The position numbers were made by a program, and so were the translations under genes. This document shows positions 22,629 through 28,047 of a DNA stretch of 61,529 bases, piece by piece. The notes under the pieces were generated by a model. It made no database searches and was not told the DNA's origin. It saw only the letters and a program-made list of their open reading frames with translations. Within the stretch, counting starts at the first letter, position 1. Every line of letters begins with the position of its first letter. The stretch is from Singulisphaera sp. GP187 (GTDB lineage Bacteria; Planctomycetota; GCA-002687715): assembly GCA_945907755.1 (NCBI GenBank), contig CAMDTN010000011.1:1-61529 (forward strand). Reading direction: 5' to 3'.

Positions 22629-25035
22629 GATTGACTCCAGCCACGAATGAGATCCCCGTCGGCGGCGGTCCGGTCTCAATCGCAGTGAAGATGAGGCGTG
22701 CGGGCGGCCCGCCTATCGGAAGAAGGGCACTGACGAGGGTGGCCGGGATTGTGAGGGTGAGGACGGGCCCAGGTCCCAACAGCGTGATCGATGGTTGCGC
22801 GAGGTTGAAGTTGGTCCCGTTAACGGTGAGGCTCATGCCAGCGATGTTCACGGGGTAGTTACTGCTTGACATGAGGGTGAGTGGTGCACCCGGGGCCGGT
22901 CGCGAGCGTTCAACGATATAGGTCAGCGGCCTTGAGGTCGCATCTGGTGCTACCGCGTTGATACCGCCCCCATGGGTCACTTTCACAACATCGATGATCG
23001 TCCCCGGTAACACGCTGAAACTCCCCACAACTGGGATTCCCGTGGGGAGCCACAGCCCGTTCAGTCCCGGAAGCCCCGTCGGAGAAGAGGTTCCGTCGTT
23101 GGACAGAAACCGGGTCTGATTGGGTTGAGAGAAAATCGCGTTCACAGACGGGTTCAGAAACCCCTCGGAATACCACTCTCCGTAAGAACCACTGGATAGC
23201 CCGCAGAAGCCCAAGTCTTCGGCGACAATGTCGTACTGTATTCCGTAGAGAGTACTGCCAAGACCACCGAAATTGAGCGCCGTGATGCCGACGATCTCAA
23301 ACGCGCCCGATGAGGTGGTGCCCGTTGAAGTGTCCAAGGCGCCGACCACATCAGTGGATGAGAGGCGAGCCGTGCCACTGATAGTTCCCACAGGCGACAT
23401 TTGAAAAGCCATATCGGGTGGAGTAGCTGGAACGGGGAGTGAGGTTCCTACTGCTCTCGCGATCGGAAAGACATTGTCGCCAAAGCGCGCTCTGCCGCTG
23501 GGAGCGGGGATGTGGAGCCGTCCTCGAATGGTGGCCGTGGTGTTGATGAGCGGGTCTTTGCCAGATGCGGGGCTCTGCACTGGATAGATGCGGGAGAGAC
23601 CAGTGGCATCGTCCCTATGGAGCAGCGGGATTCCGTTGACCATATCTGTGCCGAAGAATCGTGTCACAGCGCTCATCATGCCGGGATATTCTGCGGGCGC
23701 TCCTGTGTATGACATCCAACTCGGGCCTGCATAGACGCTTGGTGGTACCCCACCGCCGCCGGGGTGCAAGTTGGTGTGGTCGAGTCCGAAGAAGTGGCCG
23801 ATCTCATGCACAAATGCGGTGGTCTGGTTTGGTAAGCCAGCAGCAAGCCCATAGATGAAAGAGTTTGTGTCGAAGATCACATCGCATTCGATGATGGCAC
23901 CCGTCTGCGCGTTCAAGTCCATACTGCAGAAGCCGCCGTTGTTGACGACGCGATTCTGCAAGAAGATGACCTCGTTGAAGCCGTTGCCCGTGGGGCCGGT
24001 TCCGATGGGCTCCGTCCCAGTATTCGACCACGTAGGGGTCGGCGCGATGGCCGTCGCAGAGTAGTCCCAGATCAGTTGCCCGGTGCTGGCTGCAGCCAAC
24101 GGCGCGGGCGCGGGTGGTAGGACACCAGCAAGACCAGGCGGGTCGTACACGGCATAGGCCGTAGCGCTTGAATAGCCGGGAGTGGTGGTGCCGAGGACCG
24201 GAGTGTCGGCGTACACGACTGCGGTTGTCACCCAAACATCTGCGGTGGCCACATTCGCGAATTTGTTGAAGGTGGTCTGAATGTGGCTGATCCAAGTTTG
24301 CCATGTGTAAACGGTAGGCACCGATCCGCCGGGAAAAATGTTGTCCGCGGCGCTCGTGCCGTTAGGCGCCGGCGTCGCCGGGTTGTTGAACGGGCAAGAG
24401 ATCACCACCTGCACGGGATTCCCCGGCCTCATGCCAGACCAATGTCGCATCACATTTGAGTGGTAGGGCACCGGCGAGGGGTTATTGGGATTTGCGGGCT
24501 TGGTGGCCGGATCCCCGTTCAGCATGTAAGGCGGCGTGGTGAAGTTGTAGCTTGCTGCCGTACCGGCGGCGCCGGGCAGCGTTATGGCCAGATTCGGCGG
24601 AGCGAAACCACAAGTGGCGCCCGGGGGGCCGCAACTGCCGAATGCCAAAACAAACCATGGATTGTCCGGAGTCACCGAAGAAGGGTCGCATTCGGAGAAG
24701 CACTTGCGGGCTGGAATGACGAGGCGCACCCGAGATTCGCCGGAAGGCGTGGTGTAGTCGAAGGTGGTGATTTCCTGCACAGCACCCAACTCGTCCATTG
24801 TGGAGGGCACGCGTCCTGTTGAGTGTCGGGGCGTGGTCGTGGCGATTCCATGGATCGGCGTGGCGTGTGCTGTGCCCATGATTGGAGGAACGGACGGGTC
24901 ACTAGGGCAAGGAGCGGCGGGCGGCTGATCCAGCGGAGACGCGGCGAGCCACAGCGTCAGTAGTGCGATCGGCCATGACCACCGGGCTCTGGGCTCTGGG
25001 CTCTGGGCTCTGGGCTCTGGGCAAATGTACTGTGC
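22615..25035 (-). CDS. Secreted metzincin-type metalloprotease with out-of-frame start
   Basis: The frame is open from 25035 to the stop at 22615. The zinc motif HEIGHFFGLDH (HExxHxxGxxH) lies near 23774-23806, with a likely Met-turn WMSYTG after it, so it is a metzincin endopeptidase. The first in-frame ATG (24879) misses an upstream signal peptide in the same frame, WSWPIALLTLWLAASPLD, encoded at about 24925-24980. A better start, ATG 25037-25039 with GAGGG 8 nt before it, is one frame out because of the (GGGCTCT)5 tract between. Loss of one unit would join it to the signal peptide. Thus the gene may be phase-variable and OFF here, or the tract length was misread. About 300 residues after the catalytic domain are unassigned. 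Confidence 0.75.
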   Translation of the reverse strand, partial: AQYICPEPRAQSPEPRARWSWPIALLTLWLAASPLDQPPAAPCPSDPSVPPIMGTAHATPIHGIATTTPRHSTGRVPSTMDELGAVQEITTFDYTTPSGESRVRLVIPARKCFSECDPSSVTPDNPWFVLAFGSCGPPGATCGFAPPNLAITLPGAAGTAASYNFTTPPYMLNGDPATKPANPNNPSPVPYHSNVMRHWSGMRPGNPVQVVISCPFNNPATPAPNGTSAADNIFPGGSVPTVYTWQTWISHIQTTFNKFANVATADVWVTTAVVYADTPVLGTTTPGYSSATAYAVYDPPGLAGVLPPAPAPLAAASTGQLIWDYSATAIAPTPTWSNTGTEPIGTGPTGNGFNEVIFLQNRVVNNGGFCSMDLNAQTGAIIECDVIFDTNSFIYGLAAGLPNQTTAFVHEIGHFFGLDHTNLHPGGGGVPPSVYAGPSWMSYTGAPAEYPGMMSAVTRFFGTDMVNGIPLLHRDDATGLSRIYPVQSPASGKDPLINTTATIRGRLHIPAPSGRARFGDNVFPIARAVGTSLPVPATPPDMAFQMSPVGTISGTARLSSTDVVGALDTSTGTTSSGAFEIVGITALNFGGLGSTLYGIQYDIVAEDLGFCGLSSGSYGEWYSEGFLNPSVNAIFSQPNQTRFLSNDGTSSPTGLPGLNGLWLPTGIPVVGSFSVLPGTIIDVVKVTHGGGINAVAPDATSRPLTYIVERSRPAPGAPLTLMSSSNYPVNIAGMSLTVNGTNFNLAQPSITLLGPGPVLTLTIPATLVSALLPIGGPPARLIFTAIETGPPPTGISFVAGVNHVQY
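24984..25022. repeat. Heptanucleotide tandem repeat (GGGCTCT)5 plus GGGC
   Basis: There are five perfect 7-bp units and a partial sixth, between the SD-preceded ATG at 25037-25039 and the signal-peptide codons of the protease. As 7 is not a multiple of 3, each gain or loss shifts the frame. On the coding strand the unit reads AGAGCCC and encodes a repeating RAQSPEP. Confidence 0.9.
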
Positions 25036-25250
25036 TCATCGACTTACCCTCACTCTTCGTGCTCACTGATCGGCCAGTGCGGCGAATCGCTCTTGCCTAG
25101 TTGTCCAAGCGCTGTTGGCTCGGATGAAATCGACCAAGCACGGAACCACACGATCACGACCTTCTCAGCGAAGCGACAGAAGACTAAGACTACACCCGCG
25201 CGCTACGAATGCGCAACAGGAATCTGGAGCTGCGAACCACTGTTTCTGAG

Positions 25251-25289
25251 TCTTCACTTATTCGTGTGACCCACACGAATGGGTGAAGA
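25251..25289. repeat. Long perfect hairpin, possible solo IS end
   Basis: Two 18-nt arms, TCTTCACTTATTCGTGTG and CACACGAATGGGTGAAGA, flank an ACC loop and pair fully as plus-strand RNA if two G-U pairs are allowed. The right arm matches the motif beside the ISL3 remnant at 20857. It may be a terminal inverted repeat left by an ISL3 element. The rest of the 307-nt gap 25040-25346 shows no ORF. Confidence 0.55.
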
Positions 25290-25333
25290 CCCGGAAATGG
25301 AGCGTGAACTCGCACTCTGCCCAACTATGACTG

Positions 25334-25339
25334 TAGAAT
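25334..25339 (+). promoter_or_regulatory. -10-like TAGAAT, leaderless start of msrA
   Basis: TAGAAT lies 7 nt before the ATG at 25347 and overlaps the alternative ATG at 25338. This favours 25347 as the start codon of a leaderless mRNA. Confidence 0.4.
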
Positions 25340-25346
25340 GGGCCGC

Positions 25347-26165
25347 ATGCAGCGACGAACACTCATCAGCTTGGGCCTGCTATTTGCGCTGTGCGCTTGC
25401 ACGGCGGAAGCGCGGCGAGCGGATGTTGCGGCGGTCGCGCGCGAGGAGCGAATCATGACGCCACCGACTACTCCGGCGGTTGTGCCACCGAAGGCTCCGC
25501 CCTTAGACCGCAAACTTCCAGCGGAGGTGCGCAGCGCGACCTTCGCCATGGGTTGATTTTGGGGTCCTGACTCCCGGTTCGGGGGTCTGCAAGGTGTGGT
25601 GCGCACGCGCGTGGGCTATGCGGGCGGCACCAGCGCAGATGTGAACTACCGCAACATCGGCGACTGGATGGAAGCGATCCAGATCGATTACGACCCTGCG
25701 CGCGTGCGTTATGAAGACTTGCTCGCCATCTTCTTTGCCGAGCACGACGCCTGTGAAGCCGTTTGGAAACGCCAGTATGCATCTGGCATTTTCTTCCACG
25801 ATGCCGCACAGAAGCAGGCCGCGGCAAGCGCATTGGCAGCATGCGCCACAGGCGCGGCATTGAGAAGCAACACTGAATCCGGCGCGAAGCCGAGCACCGA
25901 ACTCGCGCCCGTCGTGTTTGTGGCCGCCGAGGATTACCACCAGAAATACTATTTGCGCCAAACGCGAGCGTTGGTGGGCGAACTGCTGCCATTGTTCAAC
26001 GGCAACGAGAGTGCGTTCCGTGAATCCACCGCCGTCGCACGAGTGAATGGCTACCTCGCAGGCAACGGCACGCCCGCAGACCTCGAACGCGAACTGTCAG
26101 ACCTCGGCCTCTCCGCAGACGCCCGCGATTTCCTGCGCCGCTCGCACGCCGCCAACAGCAAGTAG
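25347..26165 (+). CDS. msrA: Peptide methionine sulfoxide reductase A, probable selenoprotein
   Basis: MsrA reduces methionine-S-sulfoxide in proteins. The frame reads ATFAMG, TGA, FWGPDSRFGGLQG, RTRVGYAGGTS and later AEHDACEAVWKRQYASGIFF and EDYHQKYY, all typical MsrA segments. The TGA (25554-25556, codon 70) stands exactly where the catalytic Cys of GCFWG belongs, and the next 203 codons are open. A SECIS-like hairpin starts 12 nt after it. I therefore read a 272-residue selenoprotein; a nonsense pseudogene is the alternative. The N-terminus has a signal peptide with a possible lipobox (LFALCAC), so it is likely an envelope lipoprotein. Gene finders would split it into a 73-codon ORF (25338-25556) and a truncated one from 25596. 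Confidence 0.82.
25554..25587 (+). promoter_or_regulatory. In-frame UGA with bacterial SECIS-like hairpin
   Basis: The UGA at 25554-25556 is followed after 12 nt by an 8-bp stem, GACTCCCG (25569-25576) and CGGGGGTC (25580-25587), with one U-G pair and a GUU loop. Bacterial SECIS elements bound by SelB have a short stem about 11 nt after UGA and a G-U in the apical loop. The stem uses codons such as CGG, GGG and GGT that neighbouring genes avoid, which fits an RNA-structure constraint. Confidence 0.7.
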
Positions 26166-26168
26166 GCC

Positions 26169-26328
26169 TTATCGTCGCGCGAACCGCGGACGCACGGGCC
26201 CCGCAATAGTGCCCAATTCAAACGCGGTCTCGCCGCAAACTCGCACCGCTAGGCACTGGTGAGCCGCATTGTCGGCATAGATGGCCACCACGCCCTGTAC
26301 ATCTTTGCGCTTCGCCGCCCCGCGCTCA
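26169..26328 (-). pseudogene. Possible 3' remnant of a truncated gene
   Basis: On the minus strand a frame ends at 26169 and reads KRKDVQGVVAIYADNAAHQC then LAVRVCGETAFELGTIAGP and RPRFARR. It looks like coding sequence but has no start. Its upstream part is replaced by the CDGSH gene, at a junction near 26320. It would have been convergent with msrA, 3 nt apart. I do not recognise the family. Confidence 0.3.
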
Positions 26329-26559
26329 GATCTTGGACTTGGGTGGCGGCAGCACCCGCGCCTTCTCGTCGGACTTGAAGGCCGCCATGTTGTGAGCGCC
26401 GTCGCAGAACGGCTTGTTCGCGGAGTGCCCGCACCGGCACAGCGAGATGGTGGTGCGTCCGGCCAGGTCGAACGCCGCGCCCGTGCCGTCGCAGATGCCG
26501 AAGGTACCGGTCACGCGCAGGGGGCCGTTGACCGTGACCTGAATTGTCGTGTCGCTCAT
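26326..26559 (-). CDS. CDGSH iron-sulfur domain protein
   Basis: A 77-residue protein whose C-terminal half has the CDGSH zinc-finger-like 2Fe-2S motif CRCGHSANKPFCDGAH (C-x-C...C-x3-H), which binds a redox cluster by three Cys and one His. The N-terminal MSDTTIQVTVNGPLRVTG is a typical small beta lead-in. The exact role is unknown; electron transfer or cluster donation is usual for the family. The ATG at 26559 is preceded by GGAGA. Base and codon use differ from the core genes, and the gene sits in a block between msrA and its decayed tail copy. Confidence 0.9.
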   Translation of the reverse strand: MSDTTIQVTVNGPLRVTGTFGICDGTGAAFDLAGRTTISLCRCGHSANKPFCDGAHNMAAFKSDEKARVLPPPKSKI

Positions 26560-26749
26560 GGGGGTCTCCGTGATGCGGGGCAGCGTAGCCCTCCGGGAGC
26601 GACGGCGCCAGCCGCGCGGTAAGGTGTGATCGCGCCCCGTCACGCGGGCCCCTGGTTCTTGCTCCCATCACTGTGCACCGCGCGCGCTGGCGCCGATGGG
26701 AAGACCATCTCCTAGGAGCGTCGCGGTGGGGGACTCCGCCGGAACTGGG

Positions 26750-27845: not shown

Positions 27846-27968
27846 CTTGCCGGCCACCCGGAACCCGGCGAAGAGACCTTCGAAACTGACAAGTCAATCG
27901 ACACGGGCGGCATCGTCGCCCGTCTCGATTCGCCGATTCCCTGATTCCCTGAGCGGGCGATGGCTTCC

Positions 27969-28047
27969 GAATTGCTATCGCTGTTCAACGGCAACGAGAG
28001 CGCGTTCCGTGAATCCACCGCCGTCGCACGCCGCCAACAGCAAGTAG
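27969..28047 (+). pseudogene. Decayed partial copy of the msrA 3' end
   Basis: 27969-28029 matches msrA 25980-26040 at 55 of 61 positions, with most differences in third codon positions. It then jumps to the last 18 nt of msrA (26148-26165), which it matches exactly. The jump is at TCGCAC, present at both places in msrA, so a short-repeat deletion is likely. The surrounding gap 27846-28106 holds no gene; a 7-bp hairpin ACGGGCG/CGCCCGT lies near 27904-27924. Confidence 0.75.

Follow-up and report, generated by a model that had tools for sequence, protein, structure and literature searches.

Does an in-frame TGA at the catalytic codon of an msrA gene mark a broken gene, or is it read as selenocysteine (Sec)? 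This question is raised by a locus in the window, i.e., the whole stretch of 61,529 nt analyzed here, which comes from a planctomycete MAG of 2.68 Mb that is 97% complete. An earlier note, made from the letters of this DNA, had proposed that the TGA replaces the catalytic Cys of MsrA in a G-TGA-FWG motif, and the features now assigned to the locus are listed in Table 1. Judged from its sequence, we regard it with high confidence as a real msrA selenoprotein gene.

Table 1. Features of the msrA locus, with positions counted along the window
Feature	Position	Strand	Description or evidence
msrA selenoprotein gene	25347..26165	+	272 residues, Sec at position 70; translation with TGA=U, PF01625 match
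Lipoprotein-type signal ending in lipobox LCA-Cys18	25347..25400	+	MQRRTLISLGLLFALCAC
MsrA catalytic domain, residues 62-204	25530..25958	+	Alignment to C. oremlandii MsrA
In-frame TGA, codon 70, read as selenocysteine	25554..25556	+	Catalytic position of GCFWG
Bacterial SECIS hairpin GACTCCC-GGTTC-GGGGGTC	25569..25587	+	-11.8 kcal/mol for the minimal hairpin, covariation, codon freezing
Cys136 codon (TGT), candidate resolving cysteine	25752..25754	+	Just before the active-site L2 loop
C-terminal helical domain, residues 206-272	25962..26162	+	AlphaFold2 helices, block pLDDT above 90
Decayed partial copy of the msrA 3' end	27953..28047	+	78 nt at 85%, final 24 nt at 100%

When the TGA was translated as U, the protein matched the PMSR family of Pfam (PF01625) over residues 64 to 206 (E = 1.5e-32, 113 bits). 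The TGA is the sole internal one in the frame and falls within the motif FAMG-U-FWGPDSRFG, the translation around codon 70 being ATFAMG-U-FWGPDSRFGGLQGVVRTRVGYAGGT; an alternative in-frame ATG is present at 25335. Downstream of the TGA, 202 sense codons are open before a TAG is reached, and dN/dS values of 0.11 to 0.27 were obtained for this part in comparisons of the window gene with those of three family relatives. Both the placement of the TGA and the open, conserved state of the remaining frame were thus as the earlier note had described them, and so was the expected fate of the gene in standard annotation: a plain bacterial-code ORF caller recovers just a 189-aa piece with a GTG start at 25596. 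The locus is therefore a clean example of ordinary annotation losing a selenoenzyme. A genome search revealed one MsrA and one MsrB in this organism.

Relatives were then compared at the catalytic codon. Within the family, TGA occupies this position in three of the five relatives (G005, G004, and G002, with 68%, 77%, and 51% identity, respectively). The other two, G001 and G003, carry ordinary Cys-type MsrA and no intact Sec type (GCFWC MsrA is the only form in G003), while G002 has both. G001 also retains a decayed, N-terminally truncated Sec-MsrA fragment with a TAG, indicating that a Sec-msrA gene can be lost. In this remnant (L022, 1490-1830, minus strand), the N-terminal half is gone and the TAG replaces a conserved Glu codon. 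When 392 genomes of the phylum were searched, an in-frame TGA was found in 37 of the 38 strongest matches, and the matches below a clear score gap were ordinary MsrAs, mostly without a stop. The best 80 relatives in named genomes belong to Planctomycetota, Thermodesulfobacteriota and other former Deltaproteobacteria, Nitrospirota, Chloroflexota, Synergistota, Bacillota, Actinomycetota, and others; as this search retained the best matches to Sec-type queries, the share of Sec types in it is no census. Among the 101 loci read in detail, which span many phyla, the catalytic codon is TGA in 95 and TGC or TGT (Cys) in 6, the latter including homologues from Haloarcula and Pontibacter. On a quick tree whose backbone is poorly resolved, the Sec/Cys state changes at least five times. 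The alignment that the earlier note had called for therefore returns TGA at this codon, and rarely Cys. The same note had held that other stops in relatives would speak against a selenoprotein; one such stop is the TAG in the decayed G001 fragment. A TGA located exactly at the catalytic codon and kept across 95 loci is not a matter of chance.

The hairpin immediately 3' of the TGA was examined against the published constraints on bacterial SECIS elements, namely a loop of 3 to 9 nt, a stem of 4 to 16 bp, a distance of 16 to 37 nt from the UGA, a G among the first two loop bases, and a stability of -7.5 kcal/mol or lower (PMC13188914). With 7 bp, a 5-nt loop (GGUUC, 25576-25580), and a loop start 19 nt after the UGA, it satisfies all of these constraints, in line with the proposal that a SECIS-like hairpin lies at the right distance. 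As a single sequence, the 47-nt fold is not more stable than shuffled ones (z = -0.39), so the case for a SECIS element rests on comparison; a search of the locus against Rfam returned no relevant match. Over 91 distinct loci, 40 double-change cells were counted against 13.9 in shuffles (0/500), and sliding the hairpin partner by one to three columns lowered the covariation scores. An independent-pairs test of the covariation between columns 19 and 31 had too few supported pairs. The simple hairpin cut-offs are failed by 9 of the 95 relatives. Five of the six Cys homologues have a loop unlike those of the Sec members.

Codon choice under the hairpin adds to this comparison. Silent sites are frozen there, with Ser encoded by TCC (55/55), Arg by CGG (64/64), Gln by CAG (30/31), and Gly by GGG (93/95). 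In contrast, CGG accounts for 282 of 980 Arg codons farther along these genes (P = 3e-33), and the Gly located three codons 3' of the UGA, for which all four codons are used about equally, is encoded by GGG in 20 of 94 cases (P = 5e-31). Furthermore, when the Ser codon TCC gives way to the Ala codon GCC, the codon that pairs with it, four residues farther on, often changes to one that starts with C (21/38 versus 0/53; P = 1e-10, a value not corrected for phylogeny). Since the partner codon switches along with the Ser-to-Ala change, base pairing appears to steer the choice of amino acid. Frozen codons and pairing-driven residues 3' of the UGA together illustrate the constraint that an RNA signal places on the sequence of a protein.

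The machinery for Sec insertion was searched for in the same genome, as the earlier note had suggested, and selA, selB, selC, and selD were all found. The tRNA-Sec gene (selC) scored 78.2 bits, its anticodon being TCA (UCA) according to ARAGORN, and selA adjoins it. Two of the genes are split over contigs: the C-terminal part of selB apparently lies on a separate contig, and selD is broken by a contig end. The latter has an in-frame TGA of its own within GGUASKI, so selD is itself a Sec gene. In the family as a whole, selA, selB, and selD are present in 6/6 genomes.

With this evidence at hand, other explanations of the TGA could be weighed. It could be a nonsense mutation truncating a former Cys-MsrA, and decay is indeed seen nearby, both in the TAG-containing fragment of G001 and in a partial msrA copy 1.8 kb downstream in the window. 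Nevertheless, the long open frame after the TGA, its low dN/dS, the recurrence of the same TGA in loci across phyla, and the silent sites frozen under the hairpin all argue against a pseudogene; conservation and purifying selection 3' of the TGA refute this reading, which we consider extremely improbable. Just as little credence is given to a sequencing or assembly error that turned TGC or TGT into TGA. Single errors are possible in principle in a draft assembly of 94 contigs, but three family members and many other species, each assembled independently, carry this TGA as well, which refutes an error, and it is accompanied by the silent-site signature of the SECIS hairpin. Least credible of all is an altered genetic code in which TGA would encode an amino acid genome-wide: an in-frame TGA within a conserved gene would agree with it, but the genome has a dedicated tRNA-Sec as well as SelB, and most of the ten neighboring genes checked, like MsrB, end in a plain TGA stop, so its decoding here is local and the codon has not been reassigned.

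What remains is a selenoprotein MsrA, almost certainly of the C. oremlandii type. The closest solved protein is the selenoprotein MsrA of Clostridium oremlandii (strain OhILAs; PDB 4LWJ, 4U66, and 7C13), which was matched by phmmer over residues 62 to 258 (E about 1e-41) with about 39% identity over the aligned region. The two proteins share the catalytic Sec, the GUFWG motif, and a two-domain fold. In the alignment, the six published active-site residues of the C. oremlandii enzyme (Y47, E55, Q89, Y90, H137, and Y140) are all present, as Y101, E109, Q143, Y144, H198, and Y201. An AlphaFold2 model of the window protein (pLDDT 87.9; helices at 207-271) superimposes on 4LWJ with a TM-score of 0.88, normalised by target (E = 4e-17), the C-terminal helical domain included. 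This domain is essential for the activity and active site of C. oremlandii MsrA (PMC4333827), an enzyme that has been expressed and crystallised (PMC4479559, PMC4333827) and is about 20-fold more active than its Cys form (PMC4479559, PMC4333827). The product of the window gene is predicted to be an MsrA with inserted Sec that would serve in methionine repair.

Sec-MsrA, with its GUFWG/H motif and PF01625 domain, is a catalogued family of bacterial selenoproteins (PMC13188914), and the window gene shares its motif, family, and decoding route. Family, fold, chemistry, and decoding are thus already known, and no new kind of selenoprotein is presented here. The words planctomycete, lipoprotein, and periplasm are absent from that review of the family (PMC13188914), and the planctomycete envelope-type subset of Sec-MsrA may not have been described before. 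The ordinary Cys-type MsrAs of the same family (GCFWC; L023, L024, and L025) share the catalytic domain and also start with lipoprotein-type signals; they differ in having a catalytic Cys, in lacking the C-terminal helical domain, and in being 27% to 31% identical.

The N terminus sets the window protein apart from the C. oremlandii enzyme. The catalytic residue of the latter is at position 16, which leaves no room for a signal peptide, whereas the window protein has about 54 extra N-terminal residues, among them a hydrophobic stretch followed by the lipobox-like LCA-C18. A Cys is found at the alignment column of Cys18 in 42 of the 65 relatives that reach it, and a strict lipobox scan was passed by 31 of the 101 relatives. 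The only MsrB of the genome (L151, 1489-2103, minus strand) belongs to the Cys type and carries a strong lipobox, LLAAC (LLAACGG). Lipoprotein signals on MsrA and on the sole MsrB point to an envelope repair pair. The window Sec-MsrA probably has its anchor in the cell envelope, lipidation being read from its signal sequence, and the signals on both enzymes and on the ordinary MsrAs of the family suggest that methionine repair in this family is located there. This would add a probable envelope-anchored form, found in planctomycetes, to the known Sec-MsrAs.

The two enzymes also differ in their cysteines, which bears on how the oxidized selenoenzyme is recycled. C. oremlandii MsrA is devoid of Cys, and its recycling depends on glutaredoxin, partly via a dimer (PMC4479559). 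This 1-Cys trait was not found in the window protein, whose mature form has Cys136 and Cys166; about half of the relatives have other Cys residues too. Cys136 occurs in 21 of the 29 planctomycete members versus 2 of the 72 others and is invariant in the members of the window's family. From its distribution and placement, Cys136 may be a resolving Cys. Within the C. oremlandii-type explanation favored here, the somewhat likelier answer is nonetheless that the window protein is a 1-Cys (1-Sec) enzyme exactly like its solved counterpart and that Cys136 has no catalytic role. This agrees with the absence of Cys136 from 8 of the 29 planctomycete members and from nearly all other phyla, and with the fact that the C. 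oremlandii enzyme functions without any Cys (PMC4479559); the concentration of Cys136 in planctomycetes, its invariance in the family, and its location in the stretch leading into the active-site L2 loop speak against it. That planctomycete envelope Sec-MsrAs gained Cys136 as a resolving residue, giving a Sec plus loop-Cys cycle unlike that of the Cys-less C. oremlandii enzyme, is a tentative and rather unlikely proposal. If true, it would mean an exported selenoenzyme recycled by a thioredoxin-like envelope reductant via Cys136, and the enrichment of this residue in planctomycetes raises a testable question about the recycling of exported selenoenzymes. A short terminal tail with a Cys, in most cases as Cys-Pro (CPL, CPVP, and similar), was seen in some Sec-MsrAs from Nitrospirota, Chloroflexota, and other groups (L042, L047, L052, L055, L056, L059, L062, L065, L089, L101 to L103, L112, L114, and L118), and this C-terminal Cys could be an alternative resolving Cys.

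From the TGA, the hairpin, the machinery, the active-site residues, and the helical domain seen in the sequence, we infer a course of events for the selenoprotein MsrA of the window that runs from SelB binding through export and lipidation to a catalytic cycle. SelB would bind the hairpin 19 nt downstream and bring Sec-tRNA(Sec) to the UGA, and the product would be exported and lipidated at Cys18. The selenolate of Sec70 would attack the sulfoxide with Glu109 as the proton donor, Met would be released, and a Sec-selenenic acid would be left on the enzyme. This would then be resolved either by Cys136 or by an external reductant, the role that glutaredoxin has for C. oremlandii MsrA. Together with the one MsrB of the genome, a Cys-type enzyme and likewise a predicted lipoprotein, the enzyme would repair oxidised methionines in envelope proteins.

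Several further features were observed around msrA. In the decayed partial copy downstream of the gene, about 100 nt between the two parts are missing at a short shared sequence, TCGCACG. A near-perfect 60-nt hairpin at 25240-25300 (-39.6 kcal/mol, z = -9.5) precedes the start of msrA by about 45 nt. When tested as a shared regulatory element, it was not found in the other genomes of the family, and the rest of its own genome holds only a single weak, partial match to it. Farther upstream, between a 754-aa ORF and msrA, there is a perfect 7-bp tandem repeat, GGGCTCT, in 5.6 copies (24984-25022). Directly downstream of msrA and convergent with it is a gene for a CDGSH-type iron-sulfur protein (26326-26643, minus strand).
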